Shown here piece by piece: positions 34,129-62,704 of a DNA stretch of 64,000 bases. Under the pieces are notes generated by a model that searched no databases, was not told where the DNA came from, and saw nothing but the letters and a program-made list of their open reading frames with translations. Position 1 is the stretch's first letter. Each line of letters starts with the position of its first letter. A program made the translations under genes and the position numbers. Source of the DNA: Asparagopsis taxiformis. Lineage: Eukaryota; Rhodophyta; Florideophyceae; Bonnemaisoniales; Bonnemaisoniaceae. Where the stretch lies: positions 141,954-205,953 of the forward strand of contig JALQPE010002354.1 in assembly GCA_030407315.1 (NCBI GenBank), given 5' to 3'.

Positions 34129-34240
34129 AACACTGATTTTTGTATGAACAGAATATATTTTCGAGTTAAGAATAAATTTGTTTCGAAAATGATTGAATAA
34201 ATTTCCATATTCTGATATTGATTGACCTTTCCATAAATGT
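34129..34240 (+). repeat. element A left terminal repeat
   Basis: CACTGATTT, then TATGAACAGAAT at the same spacing as in the other two termini, then an AT-rich diverged part and TGATATTGATTGACC, which parallels GGATATTGATTGCCG at 52,320. Confidence 0.65.
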
Positions 34241-34304
34241 TCCGAAATCGATTGATCTCATGGTTATTTCATTTCCGTGGTGCAGAAATATTACAAAGAA
34301 CAGT

Positions 34305-36928
34305 TCAGTATTTCCCCAATGCTACTAAACCTGCTCTAATTTCCTTCTCTACTCCTGCTCTGAGTTTCTTGTTCGTCAAAGAATCAAACTCAGCTATTAC
34401 TGTATCCACAGAAATATTCCCTTGCCAAGGGTCTATATTTTTTCCTCTTCCAACTGTCGCCGGACGATACTTACCACTCCATGCATCCCCTTTGTCATAC
34501 ACTTCATACCATCTTATGAACAGATTTCTTGTCACGCCACTTCCATCCTGGATACATTCGATAATCTGTCCTAGCCAGAAAGGCATTTCCTTCGTACATC
34601 CGTATCCATTAACAGCAACAAATCGATTCCTAGAATAAGGTAGGTCTGTTTGAGCCATCATTTCCTGTAAATTTTCTTCATCCTCGTCAAACCCATGGTT
34701 GGAAAAACTCTGATTACTGTAAATTCCATTCAGCTCTACGCACTCTTCCAAGTTCCAATGTAGTGGTTCGTCTCTGTCTCTGTACACTTGAGCAACCAGT
34801 GCATGAAGTGATCTCATTTTAGCGACACTGTTCACCCTTACCTCCTCTGATCTGAGCCTTAGAAGAATTTTTTCCTTATCTGGTGGACAGACAACAGAGT
34901 TACAGGGTGCCGCGTGAAGGTTGGTGGAGATCGAGTAAATCCTTTGAGACCATTGGTCAATGCTGGAAGGCTTCTCCACTGGTCATCACAAGAAATTTTG
35001 ACATCACAAGCAGTTTTGAAGAAGGCAGAACCCCGTTCTGTTTCGGGATCTCTGAAGAATCTGAAGTAGCGGAACTTTGAAAAAGGTTTCACCTTCCCAA
35101 TACAGTTTTCCATCTTACATAAACCCGAGAAATTGATAATGTGTAGCATGCGGGAGACAGATGGTTCAGGCGTGAAAGACTTTCGCAGTTCATCGTGGAG
35201 ATCCTCCATAGTTGCTGCGTTATTGAATTTCAGTCTCCTTGATGTACAACTGAAGGCTTGGTCGATATCAGAGTGAGTGTGTCCTATAGGAAGGAAAGAC
35301 ACAAATATCTCTTCGTACACACCCCATGCCACTAAGCATTCCAAGTAGCAGAACAAGAATGAATTTTTGTTCTCCCGTGTGCAATTGTCAACTTGCAAAA
35401 AAAGTTTTCCCTGTAGTTTAGATCCTAATGCTTTGCTTGAAAGCGTTCTGTGAAGCGCTTCCACGATATGGTTAGCACCAGTTTCAAATTCTGCGGTCAT
35501 GGTGTACAACGAGAGATGTTTTCGGGCACCATGCTCTAGTACACCTATCAGCCTGACCTTCACACTATGCCCAACTGTCGCTTTTGTATTGACAGTGAAA
35601 TGGGGAAGCCCATATCCAGACTGGTCTGCACCATCCACGATAAGTGATGTATACTGCGAAGGGTACAACGCCGCTAGCTCACACCTCTTCTGATACTCTC
35701 TACGTTCCCGAGAAACCATCTCTATATGCAAACGTCTCCGTTCAAGAAGAGGAGCTGTACTCTTCTTGTCTGTTCCATACTTGGCTAGAGCGTCCCGAAT
35801 ATACTCACAATCAGTACATTTTGTGAATCGCTGAATTCTTCTTACTTTGATATCACCGCAATACTTCTTCCAAGTTGTGTAGAAGTATGCCAAAGAAGGT
35901 ATATTATGATATCCATGCAGAACAGTGTACTGTTCTCGGAAAACTTCATAGACAGATTTCTTTTGAAAGAGTGGAAGGTGTCTTTCGTTGGTGTCAGGCA
36001 TTCGCTCCGCTGTAGAATCCGCAAATCTGTCCAGGAAACATATAACAGAGTCCCTCTGTGGACTCTCTGGGTCTTTTTGAGCTGATGAAAAACAGACTGA
36101 TCTTCCATTTGCCCATGAAATCTTCACTGATCGTTGCATGTGTCTAGAAAACATGAAGGAAGACTCCAGGAATTTGTAGCAGACTTTCCTCCCGCAAAAA
36201 AGGTAAACTTTAGAGCTGGGATCGAATAATTTCTCCAAGTATCTTCGCCGATCAATCCTTCCCCATAAAAGTACTCGGCTGACTTCAGACCTCAGAAACG
36301 TTGGGTCTGTACTTCGAAAGCATCTCCTTTTCTTACAACAGAACTGTTTTCTGATGTCTAGATTAGATAAAGACGTGACATGCTTCCTCTTCTCGATCAT
36401 CCTTTTGCTCACACGATTTCCATTACTCCTCTTGTCGCTATCATGGCTTTTTCGTGGACTTGTATCCAACTGATAGATGGATGGTTTTCCAATTGGACAA
36501 GATGACGCACAAGAATCAGAATATCTTTCTGTTGCAGTACTTGGAGATAAGCAGTCAGATACAGAAGCTTGTTTTACTTCCAGCGGTGATTGAAATGGAA
36601 TATTTCCGTAACCGTCATTACGCTCCAAAAGAATTCCAGATTCCGAACGATTCAATGAACCTCTGACATATTCTTGGCGGTTTCTGTTGAAACGAATTGG
36701 AATTATATCATTGCTCAATGGAATTCCTTGGTTTGCAGATGATTTTGATCGGTTTGGATGATGCGGAAATGAGTTCTCGCTGGTGCATTGTTCAGCTTCG
36801 GCTTCGATCCCCAGCGTTGCAAGAATACCGACAGCACTTTTGTGAATCAGTTTGCGGTTGGTGTCGGAGAGGCAAAATGTGTCCTCCATGAGTTTGCAGT
36901 GGTTTTCACTTCGAACGCTCACTTTCAT
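34305..36928 (-). CDS. D-D-D transposase of element A (one frameshift)
   Basis: Frames 36928-34859 and 34979-34305 join by a 1-nt shift near 34913, giving about 870 residues; element B's frame confirms the join (CPPDRNKVLF versus CPPDKEKILL). Order: disordered N-terminus; Cys-rich domain with CC197-198, C203 and GRKVCYKF at 246-253; CTDC at 371-374; RNase H-like core with acidic residues in LIVDGADQSG (D432), LFLQVDNCTREN (D514) and GHTHSDIDQAF (D554/D556); then GLCKMENC; and a C-terminal all-beta-looking domain (RNRFVAVNGYGCTKEMPFWL, WYEVYDKGDAWSGKY). The core pattern (VDNCTRENKN, GHTHxDIDQ) matches the large uncharacterised protein group annotated as DUF7869, which I take to be a DDE-type transposase. 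It should cut and join the element's ends. Transcribed in the same direction as the methyltransferase, 210 bases downstream of it. Confidence 0.75.
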
Positions 36929-37139
36929 TGAGAGGTGAACAGAAGGCGGGCAAAATTTGTAAGTACTGATAGAGCATATAATTCAAATTTACAAAAACAG
37001 AGAACAAATTTGGCGCCAAATATTGTACAACGGTAATGATCGATGTGAAAAGATTTATTCCATTCTTCTCTAGATGTTTGGAATCGCTCTTCAGTAGTGC
37101 AATGTACAAAAATAGTACTCATTCGCAAACATCTTTATC

Positions 37140-40010
37140 TCAATTGGAACATCTCATGCTGTGTAGGTCCCAAGAGAATATTCCCGCTAAGCCCTTCAGG
37201 TTTCCCGGAGGCTTCTCGATGCCTCCATAACCATATGGGTATTTTTTATCGCCAGCATCCTCCTTAACTTTGAAGGAATAGCATGCAACTAGCTTCTGGC
37301 CATCTTTCTCGTACTCAGAGAGAGGAACATTATGAATAGAAGTATGTAAATCACTGTCATTATCTGGAGCTGACAGAAGCTTTGCATGACCAATAGTGAT
37401 TCCATCAAGGAGTAATTCAACTCCGTCCCCTCCTTTCAGCATATCGTTTCCACTTTGAACAATAGTACTGCTCTTTTCGATCATCTTCGTGATTTCTCCA
37501 CTGCTTTCAGCTTTTGAATTCTCTCGCGTCTTTCTCTTCTTCATTGCGTGGTGTGAGGATGGACTTTTTCGGTACAGTATCTCTGCCACTGCACGTAGCC
37601 TCTCATGGGCAAGACGAAATGTAGATGCGCTTGACTCGATTACTACACATGAACGTGCAGTTCGCAACGAAGCTATTCCAGTAGTGAAAGTACCTCCGTA
37701 AATATCCAAAACAGAACCCCGTTCTGGACAAAATGTATTGATTAGTTCAGCAAGCAGACCCACATTTTTCTCCTCTGTTAGGACGGGAGATTTCGTGCCT
37801 GGCAAAAGGAGCTTTTCTTTTGAAACGGGTATACCTGACATAGCAGCAAACCGTCTGCTTGTCTTTGAAGGAACGAAGTTGTAAGGGCTCCTCAAATCTG
37901 GCTTGAATGCACTTTTCGAAATTCCTGGTGCCCTTGCAATGACAGAAAATTCACAAGCGTTCTGAGGAAACTGATCACCTCTGTGAGCTTGCATCGTACT
38001 GGTATCCTTCATAATTACGAATGGGTATTCTGGTCCGGCAAATCCGATGCGGTGAAGTTCGTTGTAGAAAAGTTCGAAGTTTCGAAATGAAACAAATGCA
38101 AGAAACCACCCTCCCGGCTTCAAGACGCGCCTGGCAAACTGACATATCTCTTTCACTTCCTTGTCATCTATGAAGTTATCGTAAGAAGTGTTTCGCAAAG
38201 AACGAGATTTAGGCGTCCCATACGGTGGATCTGTCAGTATAAGATCGAAGAGAGCATCACCATCTGTCCAAACGGTCTTATCAAAATCTTGCCATTTCAT
38301 CTGGTGGCATGAAACACCCAATTCGTCAAGATAGTTAATTTTCTCATCCAGCACTTCTGTAGTACAAGCAACTCGTTTTGGACGCGTATTCAGTCGGACA
38401 GAATTGGCACTCGGAGCGTTTGATGGAGCGGAATTATTCCTGTTAACCTGCTTCGGTTGAACGGAATTTGGTTCCGAATTAGGTTTGGTCAAGACTTCTG
38501 ATTCAGGCATATCGCCTAGATCCTGTGGTAATGTTCTTGGTGCCTTTCCTTCTATAGTGATGCTCGGCACTGGATGTGGAACTTGATCTTCAGGAACTTC
38601 ATCCCCTTTAGTGATATCTTCAGCTGCGATTGGAAGAGAATCATCCGCGGAAGCTAAGGCAGTACAATTGTCTTTAGCCTGAAGTTCTTTCTCCCTGGTG
38701 AAATTCTCGGAAAACTTTTTTTCTTTAAGCGGTGCAGCCTCAGGACAAACTTTCCGATATTGTTTAAGAAGAGAATCTAAAACATCTCCATCATTCCCGA
38801 AATTGGCAGTAACTTCACAATCAAATTTTGTGGTACGGAGTAAGTTGTGCTTGACTACTTCCATTCCAGACGGCCATTCATCATCTTCTAAAAGAGCTTC
38901 AAACTTTCGAGCCTCCCTCATTGCACTACAAGCACTCTCAAACTGCTCCACTGTTACCTTATACGATGCTGCTTTGAACTTGTTCGTTCTAGAAATTTCC
39001 CTCAGCCGGTGGAGCGTGTTGATTTGATTCTTTTCTCCGTCCGGACCTGAGGCTCTCATGAACTTTGTCGCGGACTTGATTGAAGTTATGTTGATGAATT
39101 TCCTGTATACTCGACAATCGGTGCATCGCATATTCATGGATTTTTCCAGCGGTTTATATTCAGCAGAACTTGGTTCTGCCAAATCCGGGTGCTCTTCGTT
39201 CATGATTACTCCGATCTCATGTATTACACTTAGTGGAAGTCTAACTGCTGTTGTTGCTGCTTGTCTTATAGTATTATCCTTCAGATGCGTACAACCATCA
39301 TACGCTGAAGCGATCTGTTTCGCAGATGGAGCTCTACCATTCGACATGGTCTTCAATCGGTCAGCTTCATCTCTTAAACCGACCAAAGTATCATAGAAAG
39401 TTGATTCGATGTAAAAGGATGCATCATGTTTCTTATTCTGATGCCTTCCTAATTGCTTCAAAGTTTGCAAGCTGTGTCCGCCTTTCAGAATAGTCACAGG
39501 CCACAAGAAAGACTCCCAGTGTTCTGGATCTTCGTCTATTAACTCACGAATAGCAGTCATTCTGTGCATTCCGTCTACTACTCCGTACCAGACAGAACGA
39601 TCTTCTGCTTTTTCTGCGGCTTGGGATTCAGAGATAGGTTCCCCGTCCGAGCCGAGTTTAGATCGGAAGAAGTCCAACACATGTCTTTTCAAACCTCCCG
39701 TTAGCTCTACAACAATAGCATTATCAGATCCAGCAACAAATCCATCTCCAATATTCTCTATGGGCATTCCATCTCTCTTTCCCGAAGAAACTGTGGAACC
39801 TCCACTGAATATAGACTTCAATCTCAAGACACCAGAGCGGGATATTTGACGAATTGATGTCAACGGAATGCAAGATCGAGGATCTACACGGCTGTTTGTC
39901 GAGCCTTCCATGATATCAGCGAACAATGCTTTAACGGATGCATCCTCCCGACCAGAACTAGGTTCTGTCGAGCTTATTTTGTGTTTTGCTTGAAAGAATC
40001 GCTTACTCAT
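37140..40010 (-). CDS. ParB-like domain fused to beta-class DNA methyltransferase (element A)
   Basis: Intact frame. Open from 40160, but ATG 40010 (MSKRFFQAKHK) is favoured because element B has a matching MSSSFFKQKN start. Residue numbers below count from 40160. ParB/Srx-like part: TSIRQISRSGVLRLKSIF (101-118) and YGVVDGMHRMTAIREL (192-207). An Ala/Lys-rich helical region and a CTDCRVYRKF pair (346-355) follow. The methyltransferase part has FDLILTDPPYGTP (638-650), RRVLKPGGWFLAF (677-689), FPFVIMKD-like EYPFVIMKD, and cofactor motif SVLDIYGGTFTTGIASL (816-832) preceded by LLAELINTFCPERG. The DPPY-first order defines the beta class acting on N6 of adenine or N4 of cytosine. A C-terminal extension (about 130 residues) includes WDLHSM. 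ParB-methyltransferase fusions are known in bacteria and phages; a eukaryotic transposon copy twice this size is unusual. The target base and site cannot be read from sequence. Confidence 0.85.
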   Translation of the reverse strand: MSKRFFQAKHKISSTEPSSGREDASVKALFADIMEGSTNSRVDPRSCIPLTSIRQISRSGVLRLKSIFSGGSTVSSGKRDGMPIENIGDGFVAGSDNAIVVELTGGLKRHVLDFFRSKLGSDGEPISESQAAEKAEDRSVWYGVVDGMHRMTAIRELIDEDPEHWESFLWPVTILKGGHSLQTLKQLGRHQNKKHDASFYIESTFYDTLVGLRDEADRLKTMSNGRAPSAKQIASAYDGCTHLKDNTIRQAATTAVRLPLSVIHEIGVIMNEEHPDLAEPSSAEYKPLEKSMNMRCTDCRVYRKFINITSIKSATKFMRASGPDGEKNQINTLHRLREISRTNKFKAASYKVTVEQFESACSAMREARKFEALLEDDEWPSGMEVVKHNLLRTTKFDCEVTANFGNDGDVLDSLLKQYRKVCPEAAPLKEKKFSENFTREKELQAKDNCTALASADDSLPIAAEDITKGDEVPEDQVPHPVPSITIEGKAPRTLPQDLGDMPESEVLTKPNSEPNSVQPKQVNRNNSAPSNAPSANSVRLNTRPKRVACTTEVLDEKINYLDELGVSCHQMKWQDFDKTVWTDGDALFDLILTDPPYGTPKSRSLRNTSYDNFIDDKEVKEICQFARRVLKPGGWFLAFVSFRNFELFYNELHRIGFAGPEYPFVIMKDTSTMQAHRGDQFPQNACEFSVIARAPGISKSAFKPDLRSPYNFVPSKTSRRFAAMSGIPVSKEKLLLPGTKSPVLTEEKNVGLLAELINTFCPERGSVLDIYGGTFTTGIASLRTARSCVVIESSASTFRLAHERLRAVAEILYRKSPSSHHAMKKRKTRENSKAESSGEITKMIEKSSTIVQSGNDMLKGGDGVELLLDGITIGHAKLLSAPDNDSDLHTSIHNVPLSEYEKDGQKLVACYSFKVKEDAGDKKYPYGYGGIEKPPGNLKGLAGIFSWDLHSMRCSN

Positions 40011-40608
40011 CTTCTGGTCACAATCGAGCTCTGAGTAAAACTGTGGTTTCGCGCTGTGAACTTGACCAGGCTGAACCTTTGTCCAGAAACGAGGAACGAA
40101 AACGACAGGATAATTGAATGATTGGAGCCTCCTTTTGCTACATGAAGAGTTTTCTCGCAAGTGTTGAGTTCCATGATAAGTAAGTCAGTGAACCTTTTAC
40201 GAGTTCAAAATTTGTAAAGTTGCATTCCAGTCAGATTTCATTCCTCCCAATCAATCTGCATTTCGGGAGTAGTACTTTCGGCACACCTGGCAATCACATG
40301 GTCATCAGAGAGATGAGAAACTATATGGAAGTGATATATGGAATAGAAAGCCGGGCCAATGGTGTCGTTTATCTGTCTAGAAAATATCAATATTTGACAA
40401 CAGATATTTTGTCCTATCCTTCGCATAACCAATAGAAACGTTTTTCACATAGACTGCATTGAGTGACCATAATTGGTGGGCTTAGGGCCCAAAATTTTTT
40501 GATATTCCGGTGGCAATTTTGAAGGGTATAGTCTCGCGAGGTTACATTCAAATGGAAATAATCGTCCCGAGATGATGTGTCAGAATGCTCAAGCTAATCT
40601 TAGAACAT

Positions 40609-40649
40609 GAAACCTATGCATCAAATATCAATATTCGCGGATAGGTATC
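40609..40649. promoter_or_regulatory. palindromic noncoding element conserved with element B
   Basis: GAAACCTATG, ATATCAATATT, GATAGGTATC in this order, between the divergent methyltransferase and accessory genes. The same block occurs at 58993-59033 in element B. Much of the surrounding 1 kb differs, so it is a candidate binding site. Confidence 0.55.
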
Positions 40650-41237
40650 AATCTTGTCCAACTTGGAGGATGTATTCACCTCCCGTGTCACATTTTCCGG
40701 TCCGCATAGTCGACAGAAAAATAGTTCCAATTAATTCCGAACGTCTCTTTTGGGCTGGAAGCTTCTGAACAGAAAGTCATTCTGATGATATAACCAGAAC
40801 ACAGTTCTTTTTCACCTAAACTTTATGGAGAGTACATATGGGATTTTAATAGCTTCGCAACGGTTACTGGGTCTAAACCGTTCTGGTCATTTTTGGGCGG
40901 GACGCTTCGAGACAGAACAAGGTTCTGATGCGAGAACCAGAACACAGTTCAGTGTTACTTAAATTTCTTGCAATCTACAAAGGGAATTTGGATAGTCTCG
41001 TAGTGTTTTTGGGCTCGGGAAGAAGTTGTGCACCTTTCTGTACAAGTGTAAAGGTTTTTGGAAAGTTTACAGAACATTAAAAATTTTAAGTTCGTATCAA
41101 ATATCAATTGTGTTGCTGGAAGCTTCCAGCCAGAGCGACGTTATGATACAAATTTCAGAACATCGTTCTGTTTTTATTTAATTGCGTTGTAGCTGCTACT
41201 CTACGTTGGCGAAATGTGATGGGTTGTCAGAAACACC

Positions 41238-42320
41238 ATGGAAGGTACAGTGAAACGGAAGACTCTAGCGAGAAAGTCTCCTCGCACATCCCCGGTCGTC
41301 AAGGATGGATCCATGGAAGGTACAGTGAAACGGAAGACTCTAGCGAAAAAGTCTCCTCGCACATCCCCGGTCGTCAATATCCGTTCTACGGTAGGGAGGA
41401 AAGCGCCACGTTCAGCCAACTCTGGCTCCTCCCGCTCTGGGAAACGCATCCAAGAAGCTCAGGCTAGCGGCCTAAAGGCGAAGAGGGTTACCAAAGCCAT
41501 TGAAATTGAGAAAAGGGTAAATGACAAGGAGCTAAAAAATTTAACCTGCTGTAAGGATTTCTGCTTCAAGCATGTTGATGGAAAAAAGCTCTGTGAAGAC
41601 CTGAAAAGAGTTGCGAAAATGAACAAAGCGGAGCGGCGTTTATTTCTGGAATCACTGTTCGTGAAGGATTTCAAGTGTTACAAATATGGCACAATACGAG
41701 TTTGTTATGTGTTTCTAATGTCTACGTTCCTTTATTCAAGAGATATTCTATGGAAGACTAAGAGGATATTGTCAGGTAACAACGTAGAAGAACAGCAGGG
41801 CGATGAACAAGACAATATATCTGAGCAGTGCATTGATTTCGGAGATGGTGGTGGCGATGGATGCGGTGATAATGGTAGTAATGGTTCCGATGAAGACGAT
41901 TGTGTCGAACGTGGTGATGGTGGTGGCGATGGATGCGGTGATAATGGTATTAATGGTTCCGATGAAGACGATTGTGTCGAACGTGGTGATAGTGATGAAA
42001 AATATGCAACCAATTCATTTGTTATTATCAAAGGAGACGGTTGTACATCTGAGGAGCCTTTCTGGCTTGGCAAGATTCTCTCAACGAAGAAAGATCGAGA
42101 AGGCAACGTCTCCCACTTCAAATTGCACTGGTACAAGAAGTGTGCAGGTCATGCACTAACCTGCAAGTACCAACCTTGTGTGCTACCAAAGACTGGTCGT
42201 GCTTGGACAGATTCAGTTAGTGTAAGTTCTGCTATTCTAGATGTACCTTATCTTCGAGGAGGAGTGCTAGATACATTTACTTTCGAAACACTTCGACGTC
42301 AACTAGATCTATGGGAGTAG
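41238..42320 (+). CDS. transposase-derived accessory protein lacking the catalytic core (element A)
   Basis: 360 residues from ATG 41238. The first 50 residues are a 25-residue unit repeated twice (MEGTVKRKTLA...), a recent 75-bp duplication. The Cys domain follows (TCCKDFCF at 103-110, ERRLFLESLFV, RVCYVFLMSTFLYS), matching residues 195-262 of the transposase. An acidic Gly/Asp linker comes next, itself a 24-residue unit duplicated in tandem. Then the C-terminal domain (NSFVIIKGDGCTSEEPFWLG, LHWYKKCAGHALTCKY) matches the transposase C-terminus. The D-D-D core is absent. It is therefore probably a regulator or end-binding partner of the transposase, by analogy with truncated transposases that repress transposition; this is an inference. 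Divergent from the methyltransferase gene. Confidence 0.8.
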   Translation: MEGTVKRKTLARKSPRTSPVVKDGSMEGTVKRKTLAKKSPRTSPVVNIRSTVGRKAPRSANSGSSRSGKRIQEAQASGLKAKRVTKAIEIEKRVNDKELKNLTCCKDFCFKHVDGKKLCEDLKRVAKMNKAERRLFLESLFVKDFKCYKYGTIRVCYVFLMSTFLYSRDILWKTKRILSGNNVEEQQGDEQDNISEQCIDFGDGGGDGCGDNGSNGSDEDDCVERGDGGGDGCGDNGINGSDEDDCVERGDSDEKYATNSFVIIKGDGCTSEEPFWLGKILSTKKDREGNVSHFKLHWYKKCAGHALTCKYQPCVLPKTGRAWTDSVSVSSAILDVPYLRGGVLDTFTFETLRRQLDLWE

Positions 42321-42403
42321 AAACATAAATGTCAGCAACCATTTTACTCTTCCTTCATGCTAGTGAATAGCGACGACAGGAGGTTATCTGCTGATAAGCG
42401 TTT

Positions 42404-42605
42404 TTACAGCTCTTACAGTGAATTCCATCTCCGAATCGTCCGCCGTGAATGAGAATAGCTTGGGACCAAACCCAATAGAAAAGTTCTTCACCCGACTCCC
42501 CTGTAGTCTAGCGGCTAGATAATGACCGCTTTCGTGAATGAAAATGATAAATCCGAGCAGGAAGATGCCGGCACTCGTGCTTCGCTGCCGGTTGTCGAGC
42601 GCCAT
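42404..42605 (-). pseudogene. N-terminal fragment of a site-2 zinc metalloprotease (RseP/EGY-like)
   Basis: Intramembrane metalloprotease of the M50 family; the first membrane segment with the zinc motif is present ([18 protein letters not shown], HExxH type), followed by [13 protein letters not shown] and MEFTVRAV. The homology stops after RAV at about 42404, where family members continue with a conserved PLGG turn. The remainder is not found at either side of element A. So this is a fragment, not a gene merely split by the transposon. GTAAGA at about 42414 could instead be a 5' splice site; then it would be a first exon. Confidence 0.6.
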
Positions 42606-42641
42606 TCACCGCAAGGTTAGAATGTTGTGAAACAGAGCGCG

Positions 42642-42833
42642 ATGGATACGACCAACGGAGATTCTACAACTGCGAGAAGGAGACGCCAGCCAAGTGAGCG
42701 CCACTCCAAAGCCCATGCCGAGAGTCGTCATGATGATCCAGATCATTTCGTCATGTTCCTTATAGTCACTCTTCTGCTCGGCTTAGTGGCCTACCTCATT
42801 TATTATCTGCTGGGCTTGCGAAAAAGCGTGTAG
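42642..42833 (+). CDS. small single-pass membrane protein
   Basis: 63 residues from ATG 42642: a basic, His-rich N-terminus (ARRRRQPSERHSKAH), then one hydrophobic segment (FVMFLIVTLLLGLVAYLIYY) near the C-terminus ending LGLRKSV, i.e. a tail-anchored layout. It is head-to-head with the protease fragment, only 36 bases between the start codons, which suggests the two were moved together as a host block. Family unknown. 42842-43344 has no gene and could contain the promoter of the next relic. Confidence 0.45.
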   Translation: MDTTNGDSTTARRRRQPSERHSKAHAESRHDDPDHFVMFLIVTLLLGLVAYLIYYLLGLRKSV

Positions 42834-43344
42834 TGCAGTAGTCCAATTAAACGAAAACCAAATGTGTGCGTCACAATTGTGAACGAAATCATGTGAGATT
42901 CGTATCACTCGTAGATGCACTGCAAGCCGGTTTGAGAACTTGCCAAGCGCATTTGATTGGCATTGCAGTCGTCGTTTTTAAAGGGTGTGCGAATGAATCG
43001 CGACAACGACAATAGAGACCTTTTCCCCCGTAGCGACGGGCGGAAACAAGTTGAAAAGTTGTGCTCGCAACATGTGCAAAGAAACAGTTGAATCTATCCT
43101 GCAATGCCCAGAAATTAATTCCATTATTCCAGCAATCGCTGCTTAATTCAATACTGTAATGCTCAGATTCAAAACTTCAAATGGGTCGGCGCAACGAGCG
43201 CCAATTTTTGGTCAGCGCTGAACTCTGTCACTCGCTTTCGCCTGCATCTATCCCAGCACTCATATGCGGCTCTCTGTGCTTGTTTCTATACCGTGCGCTT
43301 CATCACTCATCTCACACCTGACGTACCCAACTTCTTAAACACAC

Positions 43345-46300: not shown

Positions 46301-46586
46301 CTTTGTTCAAGCGATGGGACCAGGTGCAATCATACATGTGAAAGCATTAGTACCGGCTGTTCTCGGGCAGGGATGTGTAGACATCAAGAAGAGTGTGAGA
46401 GAGTCTGCGATGAAATGTCTGGATAGCTGGTTTGACACAGTCGGTCTTGCACCCCTTATTCCATACTGTCATCTGCCTTTCGATAACCTGAACTCCGGTT
46501 TCAGGAAGGATTTATTAGAATGGCTCATACCAAGGCTACGTGGAGATATTGGGATACAAAGCGATCAAGTTCCTCGGCCAGTATGA
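43345..46586 (+). pseudogene. XMAP215/Stu2-type TOG-domain protein relic
   Basis: Members polymerise tubulin at microtubule plus ends through arrays of TOG domains. Here four TOG-like HEAT blocks can be followed: about 43370-43980 (HKNWKVREAAYRELTDKF), 44210-44850 (DWYFALDSKKWSARKLALDA, PEVREAALAGLASLQKLLGD), 45130-45750 and 46080-46570 (NSNWKKRQDALTAITLILEN), with KR-rich linkers between. The frame is broken by TAG at 44071, TAA at 44749, TAG at 46002, and a frame change near 45470. Between these lesions the sequence is long and clean, and all three stops are one C-to-T change from Gln codons. It ends abruptly at 46586 after the fourth block, so the C-terminal part is missing. Located inside the proposed limits of element A. 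Confidence 0.75.
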
Positions 46587-47104
46587 GCAACACAGACTCG
46601 TCGTGATGTATTGAATGCGACCTTGGATTGGCGGTAGTCATTTTGTACTACAAATATGTTTCGTCTACTCTAGCAGGTTGTCTTACCAGGCAACTATATT
46701 TCGACAAACCCACCAAGCGCGCCATACGGATCCTGTGCGTTTAGACAAGGGATATGCACTCGCATGTTCCAGTTAAACTATTCATTTATCTCCCTATGCG
46801 CATGGGTGCGATGCATCGGCAGACATGAAATGGATCGCTTTCATGCTGCTGCACCAACACGGCGAGCAAATATTAACAATAGAACCACGGTGCACATATA
46901 GTTTTTTATAAAATAAATACAGATAATGTTATCAAATAAGAACTCTAGTATGGTCAGATTGTTTTGAAAACTACCAATACGGTTGAAACGCGACTTTCAA
47001 GGCAGAAGCGAGCAGATTGTCGACAGGCTGTCAGAGGATTGTAAACGAACCAAGCTGCGACTGGTTGTAAGACAAACAAATTGGGTTGGGGCAGTGATGA
47101 ACTT
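46587..47104. other. no recognisable gene
   Basis: AT-rich in its second half (46900-46960). Nothing supported between the end of the TOG relic and the inverted terminus. Confidence 0.4.
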
Positions 47105-47251
47105 GGAGCTGTCAGCGCAATTCCGGCCAATCAGTCAATATGTTCATCTCATTGGCCACACTTCAATCAACTTACGATTAGTCAATCAACATCGAAAAAT
47201 TTTCAGATTCTGTTTCCGGAAGTACATTCTGTTCATATGCAAATCAGTGTT
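47105..47251 (-). repeat. element A right terminal repeat
   Basis: Read inward on the minus strand from 47251: AACACTGATTTGCATATGAA, then CAGAATGTACTTCCGGAAAC, and further in GTTGATTGAAGTGTGGCCAA. It matches element B's left terminus over more than 100 bases, with a small diverged patch. Confidence 0.75.
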
Positions 47252-47532
47252 AAATGAATTAATTGAAAATTCATGTCCCAGGCAGTCGTTCGTCCTTCCA
47301 TGCACACGTTGCCAGCACGCAATGTGATGTAACAGTTGGAAATGATTGAACTCTCGGTTAAATTCCACCGTTGGGATGTCAGCTGGAGTGAGCACAAAAC
47401 TACTACCCACAAAACTACGAACACGTTACATTCCAAGTCTCGAAAGCACCACAAAAATAAAATTGGTCGCATCAGGACGGCACAGTCTCCCCTGTTCAGC
47501 TCGCAATCCTCCCTTTTGCGTCAAAACTCGAC

Positions 47533-48671: not shown

Positions 48672-48675
48672 GGGA

Positions 48676-51288: not shown

Positions 51289-52263
51289 ATGACGGGGAGT
51301 GAGGTGTCGCACTCCCGTCAGGAGGTGGAGCGATTACGCTACTCGGTGGACATCTCACCACTACCACCTCCGCAGGAAAAGGCTGCAACTCCCTCTAGGG
51401 ACCAAAGTCTTTCCCAGACACCAACCCCTTCGGGTTCCCCCACAGGGACTCGAACCGCAAGGCCGAAAGCCTCATGCCTGCTTAAGGCCGCCCATTACGT
51501 GGTAATGGGTTCCATCGGACTCGATCCGTCAATTCTCACGCCCATGCGTATGGTGATGGACACCGGGTCCGGACCATCGGTCATCCATGAAAGGAGCTTA
51601 CCCCACAATTGGGAACAATTCCAAGTCCCTACGGGGAAAGTTCCGCAACTGGCCGATGCTAACGGCAATCCTCTTCGGATAAAAGGCAAGATAATACTGT
51701 CATTACAGTTAGGCCATAAGTCCTTTGAGGAAGAATTCTTCGTCGCGCCTAAGTTGGCCGTACCCCTCATCTTGGGAACTGGGGCAATGAATACCCACGT
51801 AGACGCAATTAGGTGCCGGGCCCAACGAATTGATATTCACGACGGCGGGTCGATAGCTATCCTAGTGATGTCGCCTACGCGTAAAACATCCCCCACCCTT
51901 TCGTGCTACGTGGATACCTCGCGACCCTCTAATGGGATTAACTTAGACCGCCAACCTCATGGCATTCGATTGTCACAAAGTGTGAATGTTCCTCCGCGGA
52001 GTCAAGTAACAACTACTGTTGTATGCGCCGGTGGCGGCTTGAGTATACTCTCTCCGAGAGATCGGATCCTTCACCGACATCGTGTCTCTATCCCGAATGG
52101 GGTTGCGGAAGTCATCCCGCGACAGGAATTCCTGACTATATTAACTAACTTCGGTACATCCGACAAGTACCTCCCTAAAGGGACAATTATAGGCTATGCC
52201 CTTCGGGCACCCGAACGGCCAATGCGCCCCATGGCTCTCAGCCGCTCTAACCCTTCCTCCCAA
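51289..52263 (+). CDS. gypsy pol N-terminus with aspartic protease, truncated
   Basis: Starts at the end of the gag-side frame (ATG overlaps the preceding TAA) in another frame. The protease motif MVMDTGSGPSVIHE is at about 51550-51590, with the flap/second strand region (FFVAPKLAVPLILGTGAMNT, about 51740) downstream. The frame continues for a few codons into element B sequence and then ends (52347). Confidence 0.75.
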
Positions 52264-52372
52264 AACACTGATTTCCATATGAACAGAATGTACTTCCGGA
52301 AACAGAATCTCAAATTATGGGATATTGATTGCCGCAGACGAAGTTGATTGAATTGTGGCCAATGGGAAGGAT
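52264..52372 (+). repeat. element B left terminal repeat
   Basis: CACTGATTTCCATATGAACA, then GAATGTACTTCCGGAAACAG, then GTTGATTGAATTGTGGCCAA. It matches the inverted terminus at 47105-47251 and, more weakly, 34129. Confidence 0.8.
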
Positions 52373-52468
52373 ATAATGATTGACACACATTTCGCTGCAA
52401 TGAAATCATTTTCAAAATTAAAAATTTTCAGAATTCAAATTTTCCAAGATGCAGCGGTCCTATCTACC

Positions 52469-55024
52469 CTATCTACCATTTCCAAGTGAAGATAAACCGG
52501 CACGAATTTCCTTTTCGACTCCTGATCTCAATTTCTTGTTTGTGAGAGAAGGAAACTCAGCGATAACACTTTCTACTGGAATTGTTTCATTCCAAGGCTT
52601 TGAATGCTTCCCCTTCCCCAGCGAAGCCGGGTGGTATTTTCCTGACCAAGCATCACGTTTGTCGTAAACTTCATACCATCGTATGCGAAGCTTGCACACT
52701 ATCCCTTCCTTGTTCCGAATACATTCCACAACCTGTCCGATCCAAAATGGCATTTCTTTTGTACATCCCTCCCCATTTACGGCGACAAACCGGTTCCGAG
52801 AATATGACAGATTAGATACGGGCTCTGGATACTCGGCGTATACTTCATTTTCATCACAATGCATTATGTTCATAGAATCCCTTTTGTATTTTCCTTTCAG
52901 CTCGAAGCAATCCCGAAGATTCCAGTGCGGAGGTTCAACCCTATTTCTGTAAACATGTTCCACAAGGTCCAGAAGTGCCTGCATTTTCATAGGACAATTT
53001 ATCCTGGATTCTTCAGACCGTATTCTGAACAGAACCTTATTCCGATCTGGCGGAGACACGACATTGTTGGGCGGCGTTGAACGGAGAGAAGGTGGGCAAA
53101 TAGTGAACCCTTTCAGTCCTGGGGTGCTAGTGGGAAGTCTTTCCCACTGATCATCACTGAATACCTTCACATCGCATGCAGTGTTATAGAAGTCAGAATT
53201 CGTTTCTGGTTCTTCGTCCCGGTAGAACCTGAAATACCTGTACTTTGAGAAAGGCTTTACCTTCCCGATACAGTTTGTCTCCCTGCATAGGCCTGAGAAA
53301 TTGATAATATGAAGCATACGAACCACAACTGGCTGTGGTGTGAAGGACTTCCTCAACTCCTCGAGTAGTTCTTCCATAGTCACAGCGTTATTAGAATGCA
53401 TTCTTCTCGAGGTACAACTGAATGCTTGGTCAATATCAGCATGTGTATGTCCTACAGGAAGGAAAGACACGAAAACCTCTTGGAAAACTCCCCAGGCCAC
53501 GAGACATTCCAAATAACAAAACAAAAATTTGTTCTTGTTTTCGCGTGTGCAGTTATCGACTTGCAAGTACAAGGTTCCTTCAAGTTGTGAGCTCTCGGCC
53601 TTGGCTGACAGACTTCTATGGAGAGCTTCAATGATATGATTTGCCCCAGTCTCATGCTCTGCAGTCATTGTATATAGTGTGAGGCGTTTTCGAACTCTAT
53701 GTTCGAGTACACCAACAAGTTTCACCTTGAGACTGTGCCCAACGGTTGCTTTCGTACTCACGGAGAAGTGAGGAAGTCCATAACCAGATTGATCAGCACC
53801 GTCAATAATTAGGGATGTATATTTTGAGGGATACAATGTAGTTAGTTCACATTTCCTCTGGTATTCTCTTCTTTCTCTGGCGACCATCTCGATATGCAAA
53901 CGCCTTCTCTCGAGAAGAGGGGCAGTACGAGTCACATCTGTTCCGAGTCTCTCTAAGGCACTGCGAATGTATTCGCACTCAGTACATTTTGTAAACCTCT
54001 GAATTCTCCTTACTTTGATATCTCCACAATATGTCTTCCATGTGGAGTAGAAGTAAGTTAGAGAAGGTGGGTGTTGTGTACCATACAGAACAGAGTACTG
54101 TTCACAGAACATTTCATAGACAGCTTTTTTTGGAATAGTGGGAGATGCCTCTCGTTTGTATCTGGCATCCGATCTGCCGTTGACTCTGCGAACCGCTCTA
54201 GGAAGCATATTACTGCATCTCTGCTGGGAGAAGCCAGGTGTTTTGATTTTTGAATTGAACAGAAGCTTCTTCCGTTCGTATATGACTTCTTGACGGAGCT
54301 CTGTAGGTGCCGGGAAAACTTAAAAGAGGACTCAAGGAACTTGTAACAGACCTTCCTCCCTGCAAACCTGAAGATCATAGAACTTGGCTCCAGTAAATTT
54401 TGCAGATATCTTCTCCTATCTTCATTTCCCCAGAGAAGTACTCGGGAAGTTTCACTGGACAAGAATACACAATCTGTTCTCGAAAAGCAATTCTGTTGAC
54501 AGCATTTCATCTTCTTCATTTCTGTGCTCGACAGAGACAGAACAAGATTTCTCCTGAATATCTTCCTTCTGCTTTCTGGTTTCAACAACTTACCTCTTAC
54601 TTTGCTGTCGTACGGCTTTCTTTTCCGATTGTAGTGATTTTTGGAGTGGAAGTTCTCGGCAGAAACAAATTTGTTTCGCTCAGAAACTTTTAGAGCATCA
54701 GAAGAAACTTGTTCATTATCAGGATCGTCCATGTCGCTCAAGGGGACTTCAAATTCCTTGACCCAATGAGATCAGGTACAAAGTCATTAGATCCTTGATC
54801 CGCTCTTGGGTCTCTGTAGGGATTCCGTACATGTGCAAAACTTTCTCTGAACTCTCTTCTTCTCCTTTCTGAATTTTTTCTCCTTTCGTTATCAAGGCAC
54901 TGGATCCATGCGTAGTGAGTGTGAAACCAGGATCTACTCCCAATGAAAGTAGAATGGATTCGGCTTGGGTACGCAGTACATCGTGATCGCAGGGGGAAAG
55001 CGGGGTGGGATCTTGTGTGCTCAT
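52469..55024 (-). CDS. D-D-D transposase of element B (two frameshifts)
   Basis: Frames 55102-54749, 54741-54058 and 54208-52469 align in order with the element A protein, so one gene of about 850 residues is likely. ATG 55024 (MSTQDPTPLS) is a good start. Breaks: near 54760 and in an A7 run at about 54127-54133. Cys domain (KCCQQNCFS, GRKVCYKFLESSFKFS), catalytic motifs (SLIIDGADQSGYG, LYLQVDNCTREN, GHTHADIDQAFSC) and C-terminal domain (NRFVAVNGEGCTKEMPFWIG) are all kept, and the acidic triad is intact. Stop is TAG. Function as for element A. Confidence 0.7.
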
Positions 55025-55415
55025 TGTGAAAGATCCGAAAATGGTTCTGTTTTGATTGTTACGCAATAGTGGTTGAGAAAATAGAACAGGGATATCGGAC
55101 AAATCATATTTTCCTAGAGCTCTCTATACAAATTACGTATCTACAACTTTATCACTCAGGAGTCTGCTGTATCGGCTGTCAGGAAAACTTTGGCGTTGAA
55201 GAATTGTAACGGGAAGAAATATAATATACGTGTAACGGTATGTATTCCTAGACTCGAGCACAGCAGCATCCGTTACAGTATTTCTGAAGAATAGAAGTTT
55301 ACTGGAAAGGTTTCCAATTTCAGGCTATGGTGTACTTCTCGATAAGGGCAACAGGAGAGAACTGATAGCTGCGATTCGTCCATGTTCTACTATATGTTAC
55401 AAATGGTCGTGAAAA

Positions 55416-58265
55416 TCATTGCTTGCCGGAGATACAATTTGAAACTTGCATTGCATATAGATCCCATGAGAATACTCCTACGAGACCTTGCAAAGTCTTG
55501 GGTGGCTCCTCAACCCCACCATAGCCATACGGGTACGCATAGTTCTTAGTATTTTCCTTCACCTCAAAATGATAGCAAGATATGAGCTTCTGATCTTTCT
55601 TCTCATATTTGGTCAGCGACACATTATGAATTGAAGTTTGAAGAGCGGTACTTTCTTCCGGTCCTAGAAGAAGCTTTGCAACCCCCACAATGTTACCGTC
55701 TATCATGAGGTCCACTATATCCCCTCCTCTGGGAACTTGTCTTTCGTTTCCATCTTCTGTTACTCTTGCAATACAGTCAATTTCTCCACTGCTGTCTGTA
55801 TTTCTGGAATCCCCTATCTTTCTCTTCTTCGAATCATTTTTCGTTTTGGGAACCTTTGAATACAATATTCCGGCTACAGCTCGAAGTCTTTCATGAGCAA
55901 TGCGGAAAGTTCGGGCATTCGCCTCAATTACAACGCATGATCGAGCGGTTCTCATTGATGCAATAGGAGTTGTTAACGTTCCTGAGTACATATCCAAAAC
56001 AGAACCTCTTTCCGGACAGAAAGTATTGATTAGCTCAGAAAGTAGGGCAATGTTTTTTCCTCCGTAAGAACCGGGCCTTTGAGCCAGGAATAACAAGCTT
56101 TTCTTTAGAAACAGGTATATCTGACATCGCAGCGAACCTTCTGCTTGTCTTTGAAGGGACAAAATGGTACGGACTCTTCAGATCAGGTTTGAAACCATCT
56201 TTAGAAGCCCCTGGTGCCTTTGCGATCACTGCAAAGTCACATGCGTTTTGAGGAAAGTTTTCACCTCTGTGGTGTTGTATGGTTCGAGTATCCTTCATTA
56301 TAACGAAAGGATACTCTGGACCGGAAAAACCAATCCGATGAAGCTCACTGTAAAAACTTTCGAAGTTTCGGAACGACAAAAACGAAAGAAACCATCCACC
56401 GGGCTTCAGAACTCGTCTCGCGAACTGACAAAGAGATTTAATTTCTTTGTCGTCGATAAAATTGTCGTAGTTTGTGGTACGAAGTGCCTGGGACTTCGGA
56501 GTACCATATGGGGGATCGGTAAGGATGAAGTCAAAAAGGGGGTGGTTATCAGTCCATACCGTTTTGTCGAATTCTTGCCATTTCATCTGATAACAAGCAA
56601 CTCCCATTTGACTCAAGTGATCAATTTTATCTTCTGAGTTATTTTCATCTGGAGCAGATCGCTTTGGTCGAGTATTCAGCCTTTCAGAATTCAAACTTGG
56701 AACGTTTCCAGTACAGACAATCTCACCTTGCTTAGTTCCTGTTTTACCGGGATCAGAAACATGTTCCGATTTAGAAGTTTTGCTCTCGGAAGGCTTAACA
56801 ACTTCATTATGCTCTTGTTCAGACCTAGCGACAGTTTCTGCGCTGACTTCACCCTTTTCTGTTATTTGTTCTTCACCTCCATCATTCTCATTGGGTAAGG
56901 CACCCTCTGAAAGATCACCATCAACTTGAACAGAATCATACTCTGAAATGCTCCTATTTTGCTCAATGTATTTCTTTTCCTTCATTGGTGCTGCCTCTGG
57001 ACAGACTTTTCGGTATTGCTTCAAGAGCGTTTCAAGAATTTCTGTGTCGTTACCAGAGTTAGCAGAAACTTCTGTATCGAACTTAGTCGATCTAAGAAGG
57101 TTATTCTTGATTGCTTCCATGCCAGAGGGCCATGTTTCCTCCTCGATGAGGGACTCGAACTTCCTAGCCTCCCTCAAAGCATGACAAGCGCTTTCGAATT
57201 GCTCTACTGTGGCTTTGTAGGATGCTGCTTTAAACTTATTTGACCTCGAAATTTCTCTGAGGCGATACAGTGTGTTGATCTGATTTTGTTCTGCGTCCGG
57301 CCCCGTAGCGTTCATAAACTTGGTAGCTGACTTGATCGATGTAATGTTAATGAACCTACGGAACACCCGACAGTCAACTGTGTGCATTGCAGACACGGAG
57401 TCACCAATTTTCTCTCCTGATGAGAGGGTTCCGCAAGCTCTGGATGTTCCGAGTTCATTATCTTACCAATTTCATGAATGACTTTTAGTGGTAATCGAAC
57501 AGCCGTAGTAGCTGTTTGTCCCATAGTGTTATCTTTGAGATGTGTGCATCCATCATATGCAGAGGCAATTTGCTTTGCAGTTGGTTGCTTCCCGTTCGAC
57601 ATCGTCCTTAACCGATCTGATTCTTCGCGAAGACCAATTAGCGTATCGTACAACGTGGACTCGATGAAAAAGGATGCATCGTGCTTCCTGTTTTGATGCC
57701 GTCCCAACTGTTTCAAAACTTGTAAGCTATGACCGCCTTTCAGAATAGTAACGGGCCAGAGAAATGACTCCCATACATCTGGGCTCTCATCCATCAGCTC
57801 CAGAATGGCGGTGAGTCTATGCATCCCATCTACTACACCATACCAAACAGAACGACCTTCTGCTTTTTCGACTGCCTGAGACTCGGAAAGAGGTTTTCCA
57901 TCGGATCCTTTCATAGATCGGAAGAAGTCTACTACGTGGCGTTTCAGACCACCAGTGAGTTCGACTACGATCCCGTTATCGGAACCAGCAATGAAACCTT
58001 GACCATATCTGTCGTTATTTACTCGACCATTTCTCGTGTCCCGATCGAAGCTAGAACCGTTGAAAATTGCCTTCAATCTCATAACACCAGATCTTGAAAT
58101 CTGTCGAACAGAGGTTAAAGGGACACAAGAACGTGGATCTACTCGCATGTTAGTGGAACCCTCCATAACATCTGCGAAAAGCGCCATGATGGATGTGTCT
58201 CGTGGTGTGGAATGAGCATCTTGTGTACCGGAAATATTCTTTTGTTTGAAAAAAGAGCTGGACAT
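55416..58265 (-). pseudogene. ParB-methyltransferase of element B, two frameshifts
   Basis: Frames 58328-57312, 57396-56035 and 56162-55416 together match the element A protein end to end. ATG 58265 (MSSSFFKQKN) is the likely start. ParB part: TSVRQISRSGVMRLKAIF and YGVVDGMHRLTAI. Methyltransferase: FDFILTDPPYGTP, RRVLKPGGWFLSF, and SVLDMYSGTLTTPIASM, where the glycine-rich motif differs from copy A (TGI replaced by TPI). Breaks: near 57390 and a missing C near 56083 (KAR instead of KAPVLTEE). Two 1-nt errors in the assembly would restore an active gene; otherwise this copy is dead. Confidence 0.75.
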
Positions 58266-58992
58266 ATCTGTGATAGCCGTTTCCAAGCAAGAATTGTTGG
58301 GAGGGTGTATAAGCATAGAGTGGAACACAAATTGTCCTCCCAGATGTTTGGATAATAAGCAACGAAGCGCCGACGTCGGACTCCATGATGATATAAACGG
58401 AACAAAGTTCCTGAATAGTTTATTGCTACGCTCCCTGATCCGTTAAAGTTATAAACTCTCAGTACAATAACATCTCTTCACGTATAGTACAGGACTGAGT
58501 GTCAACCTGAAGGATGGTATTCCAGAGACTTACATGCAGTGGATTATTGCAAACTGGAAAATTTGCGGTGCAGGACGTCTAATTGCACCACTTGCTGAAT
58601 ATGTGAAGTAGAAATGACATGAACTCTGCTGGCTCAGGTTCGATACCGAAAGGAAGCAAACAGCACTTCAGGCCACATGAAGCTGAGCGAATGTATGACA
58701 AGTCAGCTCCATCTTGTAGTCAAGGCCATCACTCCACTCTTCGGTCTGGCTAGCCAGTCAGCGTTGAATATCAATATTGGACTATACATCTGACTACAGA
58801 CGTAACTAGAGATCCTTTCTCAACACATGTGGCTAAAATGAATCACTGAAACCGGTAATGGATTTTGAAAGGTGACCTGAACGACAAGTGTTCCCATGAT
58901 AATGCTTCATATCAAAATGTATTTTTAGTAATCCAATTACAAAATGGTAATATTCAGAACTATTTCTGCTCTATTCCTATTTCACAGCTGTA

Positions 58993-59033
58993 GAAACCTA
59001 TCCGTCTGATATCAATATTAGTCGATAGGTTTC
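58993..59033. promoter_or_regulatory. perfect palindromic noncoding element (element B copy)
   Basis: GAAACCTATC (58993-59002) and GATAGGTTTC (59024-59033) are exact inverted repeats around GATATCAATATT. Located between the methyltransferase and accessory genes, as in element A (40609-40649). Confidence 0.6.
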
Positions 59034-59485
59034 AATCTGCTTCAATTTGAGTTTCCACCATCACCTGGAAGAGCTCAGTTAGTACATCTTTCATGCATCC
59101 ATTTTACACCTGGTGAAGACAATGGCAACCCTACTCCTCACGCTGCTCACATTTCCCTAGCGGTGTATGTTGCAGTCAGATAAGTAGACCTACTTTGAAT
59201 TCGTAATTCCATACTGAACACCACTGGGAGTTCTCCATATGGACTAACTTCTTATTGTACTGGTTACCGTTAGAAGCAGCAGAACCTAAATAATATTCTG
59301 AAAATATTGAATCAATGAAAATTTCTTTGAATTGTTTCTGAGTTTGAATACTTTATCTTTATTTCGTATTCAGGATATTGTTCTGGTTCCAGCACCTAGC
59401 GTGAATATAACAGTTGGTTGTCAAAACCAGTATTTGATATTTGCCATACAACGTCGTATGGTACCATAAACGACTCGGTTTCAAA

Positions 59486-60481
59486 ATGCGTACGAGGTCT
59501 GGTCGCCCAACAACAGCGAAAAAAGTACCGCGCGGGTCGCTCAAGAAGAGCTCGGCGACTAAGGTACCCGTCCAAGCGCAAAAATCCCTACGCGCTGGAT
59601 CAAGCAAGAATACATCGCCCGTTATTGAAGATGAGCGCTCCCTAGAAACTGTTCCACTCCCAAGTCAAGCGAAGAGGTCAGTATCTCTCACAATTTCACA
59701 ACGAAGAAGACTATCGAATGCCAAAGAGCTCTCAGCTCCTTCTCAAATCAAGAAACTTACTACAAAGCATTGCTGTAAGCTAAAATGCTTCCAAAAGGTT
59801 GACCGAGATCAGCTATGTGATGATATGAAGAAAGTTGCACATATGAACCAGAAAGATCGACGCCATTTCTTACAATCTTTGTTTGTGCAAGAGTTTGAAA
59901 CGTACCGTTACGGTGGAAGGAGAGTTTGCTACAAATTTCTGAACCAAACATTCCGATTTTCAATTGATATGCAGTGGAAAACGAAAATGAAGCTTATTGG
60001 TGCGTCTGCCTCTCAACCAGTTGAATCTCCTGATTCGGAACTAGGTTCTGCTTCTGATAGCGAAAAGCAACCTGAAATTGATGAACAAGATCAGTTGCAC
60101 CCTGAGGAATCAGATGATATGGTCAACATTGATGAACAAGATCAGTTGCGCCCCGAGGAATCAGATGATATGGTCAACACGTTTGTTGCTGTGAAAGGGA
60201 CAGGCTGTTCAGCTGAGGAGCCTTTCTGGTTAGCAAAGGTTAAAGGTGTAGAAAGGGGAAAAAAGGAAAGAAATGTACTCAAGATCACAGTTGAATGGAT
60301 GGAAAAGAAGGATGGAAATGCTCTAACGTGCCGTTATGAACCATGTTTGAGAAGGAATGGATGCCCTTGGGTCGACCATATCTCTCCTGATAGTGTTATC
60401 CTTGAGATCCCGGAGCTTCTAGATGGTCGGCTGGATTCCTATTCGCGTGACTTCTTGACCAAGTTCCTAGACCTAGACTAG
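59486..60481 (+). CDS. transposase-derived accessory protein (element B)
   Basis: 331 residues from ATG 59486 (MRTRSGRPTTAKK); the frame is open a further 15 codons upstream. Basic N-terminus, Cys domain (KHCCKLKCFQ, DRRHFLQSLFV, RRVCYKFLNQTFRFS), an acidic linker with a 17-residue tandem duplication (NIDEQDQL.PEESDDMV), and the C-terminal domain (NTFVAVKGTGCSAEEPFWLA, CRYEPCLRRNGCPWVD). Same architecture as 41238-42320 and again without the catalytic core. It is intact although its element's other genes are frameshifted, which hints at selection or simply at fewer errors. A direct spacer (60482-60695) without features follows. Confidence 0.8.
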   Translation: MRTRSGRPTTAKKVPRGSLKKSSATKVPVQAQKSLRAGSSKNTSPVIEDERSLETVPLPSQAKRSVSLTISQRRRLSNAKELSAPSQIKKLTTKHCCKLKCFQKVDRDQLCDDMKKVAHMNQKDRRHFLQSLFVQEFETYRYGGRRVCYKFLNQTFRFSIDMQWKTKMKLIGASASQPVESPDSELGSASDSEKQPEIDEQDQLHPEESDDMVNIDEQDQLRPEESDDMVNTFVAVKGTGCSAEEPFWLAKVKGVERGKKERNVLKITVEWMEKKDGNALTCRYEPCLRRNGCPWVDHISPDSVILEIPELLDGRLDSYSRDFLTKFLDLD

Positions 60482-62702: not shown

Positions 62703-62704
62703 AG

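Follow-up and report, generated by a model that had tools for sequence, protein, structure and literature searches.

Can a mobile element recognise its own DNA and mark it chemically? This question is raised by a 64,000-bp stretch of the red alga Asparagopsis taxiformis (hereafter, the window), which is the end of contig C2228 in a 141.5-Mb assembly of 3156 contigs (G000; C-numbers below refer to its contigs). The window contains two related transposons, A and B, each with a transposase gene, a gene for a predicted ParB-like protein fused to a DNA methyltransferase, and an accessory gene coding for a transposase paralogue without a catalytic core. Transposon-borne methyltransferases are suspected of protecting or marking the elements that carry them, and no reported target of the ParB-fused kind was found in the literature. 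We found a 15-bp palindrome that is repeated through the genes of A and B, and that may serve the element in the recognition and chemical marking of its own DNA. Coordinates of individual features are collected in Table 1.

A and B are cut-and-paste transposons with terminal inverted repeats (TIRs), and belong to a large, recently active, high-copy family. Exact matches to the terminal sequence AACACTGATTT are present in the window at 34129 (+), 47241 (−), and 52264 (+), in agreement with the related termini proposed in a first-pass annotation of this DNA. The gene blocks outlined there were correct, but the element extents were not: A occupies 34129–47251 and includes captured host DNA, while B runs from 52264 past the contig end. 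Ends of family members have the structure AACACTGATTT...AAATCAGTGTT, i.e., AACACTG..CAGTGTT, as set by empty sites. Perfect 4-bp target-site duplications were found at 26/26 paired insertions, comprising A in the window and all convergent pairs less than 30 kb apart among the first 100 of 452 and 227 terminus places listed; inverted AACACTGATTT ends with perfect duplications were seen in 10/10 elements examined whole and 16/16 further convergent pairs read at their ends. Four pairs (C158/C338, C534/C539, C673/C991, and C837/C1581) apparently represent, by duplication and flank, the same site on duplicate contigs, and therefore 22 distinct sites were counted. Among the AACACTGATTT matches listed, neighbouring ends on one contig were convergent in 15 cases, divergent in 4, and parallel in 3. 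The presence of several insertion sites on two contigs each suggests that the assembly contains duplicate or allelic contigs.

The host site of A is a repeat with at least 40 copies, and in 4/4 copies examined (39 other flank matches were listed) ACAAAT is directly followed by GAATT. B is inserted in a gag/protease-bearing retroelement (window 49866–52347, +), and 3/3 copies examined (39 other flank matches listed; right flank of B taken from C145) read CCCAA directly followed by GAGGCC. These empty paralogous copies fix the boundaries and target-site duplications of A and B, so that the termini coincide with insertion boundaries within this genome. Four further full copies of A are 99.89–99.91% identical to it over aligned parts, which indicates recent movement; the number of tandem repeats varies between them. 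The proposal that the family has two copies is ruled out by high genome copy number. AACACTGATTT occurs 226+226 times genome-wide (reversed control, 32/21), and an extended terminus 227 times (control, 0). The accessory gene gave at least 174 matches including fragments (113 of 1043 candidates scored), and the methyltransferase gene at least 48 (46 of 3446 first-look candidates scored). Of the methyltransferase matches, 28/48 are near full-length and stop-free, with 57–100% identity to A; the family has intact copies, which are presumably autonomous.

The order of genes is the same in A and B: transposase (−), methyltransferase (−), and accessory gene (+), as had been proposed. Within this genome, the trio is also found in C90 and C504. 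Transposase and methyltransferase are both present in subfamilies A, B, C504/C352, C90, C403, C613, and C158; no separate paralogue gene was found in C158, C403, or 10 kb of C613, where accessory queries matched the transposase region only. The ratio of nonsynonymous to synonymous differences (pN/pS) between subfamilies was 0.33–0.50 for the methyltransferase (10 pairs, some with partial genes) and 0.26–0.51 for the transposase (15 pairs), with saturated pS in both cases; because of these values, both genes look to be under purifying selection.

Transposases of A and B match DUF7869 (PF25273) with E values of 7.5e-48 and 4.4e-50 (163 and 170 bits, cut-off 26), and 45/46 aligned relatives match it at E of 1 or better; a literature search for DUF7869 found nothing. 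The transposase model has an RNase-H fold with three acidic residues, and the protein is thus predicted to consist of an RNase-H DDD core plus a C-terminal BAH-like domain, in line with the D-D-D transposase of the first-pass annotation. In the window copy of A the gene is frameshifted near 34.9 kb; an intact relative, P0011, is 861 amino acids long and 99% identical. The accessory protein of A matches the N-terminal part of the transposase (37% over 94 amino acids, E 5e-9) and the C-terminal part (32% over 116 amino acids, E 2e-12), whereas the core is unmatched at E 1e-5; it is therefore, as suggested earlier, a core-less paralogue. The BAH-like domain predicted for the transposase and shared by the paralogue suggests that epigenetic targeting has a second layer.

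The second gene has a PF01555 (N6_N4 methylase) match, a DPPY motif, and the fold of beta-class amino-methyltransferases, and its structure model contains a ParB N-domain fold. In the model of the A protein, the ParB-like N-domain takes up residues ~88–246, a probable helix-turn-helix (HTH) region extends to ~414, and the methyltransferase occupies 613–868. As judged from this model, the proposed fusion of a ParB-like N-domain to a beta-class N6A/N4C methyltransferase is upheld. CcrM, M1.HpyAVI, and the bdelloid N4CMT share the methyltransferase fold; their solved chains contain no ParB module.

Against 0.032 expected, the A core has 11 occurrences of the palindrome CRGAA-N5-TTCYG; the B core has 8, including one in a TIR, against 0.038 expected (Markov resampling, 500 per region, with dinucleotide content kept on average only). 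Twelve other spacers combined gave 1 occurrence in the A core and 4 in the B core. The spacer-5 palindrome was found once in the 34 kb of the window left of A, and was absent from the cargo of A and B, a gypsy-like stretch, and the host XMAP215 locus. Genome-wide, the exact form CAGAACN3GTTCTG occurs 241 times, and its reversed control 5 times. Among the 50 exact sites listed, contigs with an A-type methyltransferase account for 40, a tandem array in C481 for 4, and a CGCGG-type variant elsewhere for 6. C947, an intact B-type copy, has 8 palindromes.

In the A core, 8/11 sites fall within coding sequence of the transposase or methyltransferase, 7 of these 8 in one reading phase. At homologous codons, B retains three of the eight, one of them with spacer and amino acids changed and both half-sites intact. 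The other five have no such counterpart in B, and the two genes of B contain three coding sites at places where A has none. Gain of palindromes at non-homologous places argues for function. The palindromes are not a by-product of protein repeats, as is clear from the three intergenic sites and the different peptides encoded by the coding sites. A sequence that is kept or regained inside coding genes and is absent from captured host DNA is a concrete candidate target, and with it the idea that a mobile element marks itself becomes open to direct test.

KorB is a bacterial repressor that is not known to carry a methyltransferase. It acts on plasmid RK2 (PMC11790492). RK2 reportedly has 12 sites for it. 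By analogy with KorB on RK2, the combination of a ParB-like fold with a fused methyltransferase and a dispersed palindrome suggests that the protein loads on the element and marks it in cis. In such a scheme, the RNase-H DDD transposase would mobilise AACACTGATTT ends into 4-bp staggered cuts, a chemistry that the observed insertion structure points to, and the product of the second gene would be an adenine-N6/cytosine-N4 methyltransferase joined to a ParB-like protein. The HTH of this protein would recognise CRGAA-N5-TTCYG across the element genes and at one end of each element; the protein would load at the palindromes like ParB, Noc, or KorB, and then methylate element DNA in cis. The resulting mark could set the element apart from the DNA of the host, work against silencing, or control transcription and excision. 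With its N-terminal domain, the core-less paralogue could compete with the transposase or recruit it at the ends, and with its BAH-like domain it could bind chromatin. The earlier idea that the element marks its ends is too narrow, since candidate sites run through the whole core. That the palindromes are ParB/KorB-like loading sites for self-marking, with the binder and the methylation both as we infer them, appears to us to stand just short of an even chance. The picture of a mobile TIR element self-marked through a palindrome-loaded ParB-methyltransferase is, as a whole, the best explanation available, and we hold it tentatively, at slightly less than even confidence. Somewhat more doubtful is ParB-type self-recognition in its full form, in which loading sites lie in the element's own coding sequences and ends and the whole element is methylated in cis. 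If true, a selfish element would have borrowed from the partition machinery of plasmids an epigenetic self-mark that is addressed by sequence.

Several observations weigh against self-marking. Overall confidence in the methyltransferase model is low (mean pLDDT, a per-residue confidence score, 61.7; pTM, a whole-fold score, 0.34). Superpositions with ParB, Noc, and a pNOB8-like ParB reach residue ~414 but are loose (root-mean-square deviation 5.6–12.7), and no ParB domain was detected in the protein by sequence profiles. C352, C158, C403, and C613 all carry the methyltransferase, and yet the exact motif was not found in the first three or in the examined part of C613. The “HLKDNT” HTH is common to A, B, and C90, and yet C90, which also carries the methyltransferase, lacks the palindrome except for one exact motif and enriched half-sites. 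A correlation between HTH and motif was considered and rejected: C403, C613, and C158 have neither the motif nor the HLKDNT HTH, but C90 breaks the pattern, and the correlation is weak and confounded by kinship. Scoring with a position weight matrix (score of at least 11) gave 6 degenerate sites in C352 (0.3 expected), 6 in C504 (0.3 expected), 1 in C90 (0.6 expected), and 3 in the host part of the window at 1–33 kb (1.0 expected). No counterpart of the palindrome was found in C158, C403, or C613, and palindrome-by-spacer counts in other subfamilies were unremarkable. A gapped-pair search of C352 additionally gave CTAG-N5-CTAG, and a host stretch of the window (16.6–24.9 kb) has more simple dyads than any core.

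A further difficulty is the presence of motif matches ~20 bp from the end in the right TIR of A and the left TIR of B, with degenerate forms in the left TIR of A and the right TIR of B, so that the motif could instead be bound by the transposase or the paralogue. In the chief alternative, the palindromes would be bound by the N-terminal domain of the transposase and by the core-less paralogue, acting as a repressor or end-binding factor, while the methyltransferase acts elsewhere. The cluster of three palindromes between the divergent genes (40770–41170) is consistent with this, as is the retention of the N-terminal domain by a paralogue that lacks the core. However, the 8/11 A core sites in coding regions would then be decoys for the transposase, and the strict 5-base spacer would suit an HTH dimer such as that of ParB. 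We regard this alternative as a serious contender, though on balance a doubtful one.

It is also conceivable, but unlikely, that a captured bacterial methyltransferase has a broad action on the DNA of the host or works in trans, e.g., by derepressing silenced loci, and that the palindromes are a separate regulatory feature. Catalytic domain identity to phage and plasmid methylases (24–28% among the rows listed) and retention of the gene in related subfamilies without the exact palindrome favour such a role; yet the ParB-like region remains fused and conserved in all subfamilies compared (the HTH part is unalignable in C158), and pN/pS does not exceed 0.50 in any of the 10 methyltransferase pairs. 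A role of the palindromes as structural signals or as sites of host factors, exploited by the element but with no relation to the proteins it encodes, would agree with the perfect dyad and with the one other variant shared by 6/50 sites listed, outside contigs with an A-type methyltransferase, but is very improbable given the genome-wide excess over the control, the single spacer-5 match in the 34 kb to the left of A, and the lack of any match in cargo or at the host XMAP215 locus.

Self-marking through a palindrome-loaded ParB-methyltransferase can be compared with known systems. Sola1-1_Ec32 of Ectocarpus is a giant DNA transposon encoding a 1104-amino-acid protein with ParB-like and N4C/N6A methyltransferase parts (PMC12477816); the same paper cites similar ParB-methyltransferases in green and red algae, with reference to Iyer 2011 and Petroll et al. 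2025, and raises the idea that such proteins may bind and modify their own transposon. Thus, both gene and idea are already in print, and the first-pass statement that no eukaryotic DNA transposon of this kind had been described is not supported. The dispersed 15-bp palindrome, as a candidate recognition site for a transposon ParB-methyltransferase, was not found in the literature (by title, none of the 8 of 16 papers listed by the one search naming palindromes dealt with such a transposon). In Sola1-1_Ec32 the methyltransferase gene is on the strand opposite to the transposase, while in A and B both are on the same strand; the passages describing that element mention neither a core-less paralogue nor a dispersed palindrome, both of which are present in A and B. 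The A/B family shares 4-bp target duplications (26/26) with the Sola superfamily, as reported for the Sola2 group (PMC3627910). The AWWT duplications given there for Dictyostelium Sola2 are not a feature of the family: AWWT is found at 2/22 distinct sites, and 20 different sequences occur among the 22. No sequence signature of Sola transposases was found in the literature searches.

Giant elements of the red alga Bostrychia are reportedly called Plavaka. As conveyed in PMC12477816, which cites them for similar ParB-methyltransferase proteins, these EnSpm elements (Petroll et al. 2025) are likewise red algal giant DNA transposons with accessory genes, and the same kind of element as ours may be described in Petroll et al. 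2025. The A/B family differs from EnSpm-type elements in its AACACTG ends, 4-bp duplications, and a transposase without the CMCT motifs C(2)C and H(3-4)H, neither of which is found in residues 501–720 of P0011. In the CMCT clade (EnSpm/CACTA, Plavaka, Transib), termini are 5'-CA..TG-3' “in most cases”, unlike AACACTG..CAGTGTT, a difference that alone is not excluding, and target duplications are 2–5 bp, in agreement with the 4 bp seen here. Assignment to EnSpm/CACTA from the CACTG motif in the ends was rejected, because the transposase has neither CMCT motif and the end, as placed by empty sites, is AACACTG. TET/JBP-carrying fungal transposons are DNA transposons with a DNA-modifying enzyme thought to counter silencing; the enzyme is an oxygenase rather than a methyltransferase, the superfamilies are different, and the account consulted mentions no ParB module (PMC12730594). 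Reverse transcriptase and tyrosine recombinase, traits of DIRS elements, were absent from Pfam-scanned long open reading frames (ORFs) of the core and cargo of A and B.

In a set of 5.8 billion proteins, at least 10 methyltransferase relatives (best 7999 candidates scored), 45 transposase relatives, and 3 accessory relatives were found. Methyltransferase and transposase matches occur on contigs of equal reported size (P0001 with P0013, 7926; P0004 with P0018, 8748). The gene trio was not recovered on contigs of other organisms, as the 3 accessory matches are on other, shorter contigs. A viral origin was rejected, with no confirmed relatives of either protein in viral_contigs.

Table 1. Features of elements A and B in the window
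Feature	Positions	Strand	Remarks
Element A	34129..47251	-	complete, 13,123 bp
Target-site duplication AAAT, left of A	34125..34128		4 bp; empty site ...ACAAAT then GAATTAATTG in paralogous copies
Left TIR of A, AACACTGATTTTTGTATGAACAGAATATATTTTCG...	34129..34165	+	palindrome degenerate
Transposase of A, DUF7869	34305..36928	-	predicted RNase-H DDD core and C-terminal BAH-like domain
Palindrome CAGAACCCCGTTCTG	35026..35040		transposase gene; kept in B, homologous codons
Palindrome CAGAACTGTTTTCTG	36339..36353		transposase gene
Palindrome CAGAATATCTTTCTG	36517..36531		transposase gene
ParB-methyltransferase of A (predicted)	37140..40160	-	1006 amino acids
Palindrome CAGAACCCCGTTCTG	37712..37726		methyltransferase gene; kept in B
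Palindrome CGGAATTTGGTTCCG	38462..38476		methyltransferase gene
Palindrome CAGAACTTGGTTCTG	39164..39178		methyltransferase gene
Palindrome CAGAACGATCTTCTG	39593..39607		methyltransferase gene; kept in B
Palindrome CAGAACTAGGTTCTG	39953..39967		methyltransferase gene
Three intergenic palindromes (40770, 40913, 41156)	40770..41170		between divergent methyltransferase and accessory genes
Core-less paralogue of A	41238..42320	+	N-terminal and C-terminal domains (the latter BAH-like in the transposase model), no catalytic core
Captured host XMAP215 (TOG) gene	42408..46554	+	cargo of A; 5' portion and upstream region, premature stops
Right TIR of A	47217..47251	-	holds one palindrome
Target-site duplication AAAT, right of A	47252..47255		4 bp
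Target-site duplication CCAA, left of B	52260..52263		empty site ...CCCAA then GAGGCC in paralogous copies
Element B, left part	52264..64000	-	past contig end on right; full copy C145:22532-38510, 15,979 bp
Eight spacer-5 palindromes of B	52284 (left TIR), 53030, 53194, 54260, 56000, 56754, 57848, 60036		span 52284..60050
Transposase of B	52469..54741	-	two overlapping ORFs
ParB-methyltransferase of B (predicted)	55416..58328	-	three ORFs in different frames; stop-free 1009-amino-acid relative in C947
Ninth palindrome of B	58955		spacer 4
Core-less paralogue of B	59441..60481	+	
Start of B cargo	60482..64000		C145 copy used for gene fragments

The cargo of A is 98.7% identical over 3345 bp to the host XMAP215 locus in C2212; upstream, one further block is 88% identical over 633 bp and another 95% over 174 bp. 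A useful cargo or addiction gene is ruled out for the window copy by its premature stops, as against a host frame open for 2079 amino acids. The cargo of B in the C145 copy contains SEL1, XPG-I, RsmB/F-like, and galactosyltransferase-like (glycosyltransferase-like) fragments, and the sole ORF scanned in the window part (60696–61178) had no Pfam match. Capture of gene fragments in this family resembles that of the Pack type. C145:22232–44231 is a near copy of about 46.5–64 kb of the window, in reverse orientation, with B complete. Related elements with long inverted terminal repeats are present at C403:27001–41322 and C158:48509–58610, with ORFs mirrored over ~4 kb and 1.4 kb, respectively; the C403 repeats hold a PRP8 N-terminal fragment.

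The palindrome array in C481 (27050–41895) consists of four tandem units of ~4.3 kb; every unit contains one CAGAACATGGTTCTG palindrome and a gene related to the accessory gene. Six single CAGAACGCGGTTCTG-type palindromes, on C46, C47, C232, C367, C464, and C495, contigs without a listed A-type methyltransferase, possibly belong to another repeat family. Elsewhere in the window, a copia-type retroelement is located at 27869–31895 (−; RVT_2, E 3.7e-66). Another methyltransferase gene (12037–15102, +) and a transposase-like ORF (21206–23893, +) lie 6 kb apart. The former codes for 895 amino acids (PF01555, E 2e-15) and is similar to the A protein in the methyltransferase domain only, the latter has a weak tnp2 (Transposase_21) match (E 0.045, under the curated cut-off), and the pair may represent another methyltransferase-carrying transposon family.

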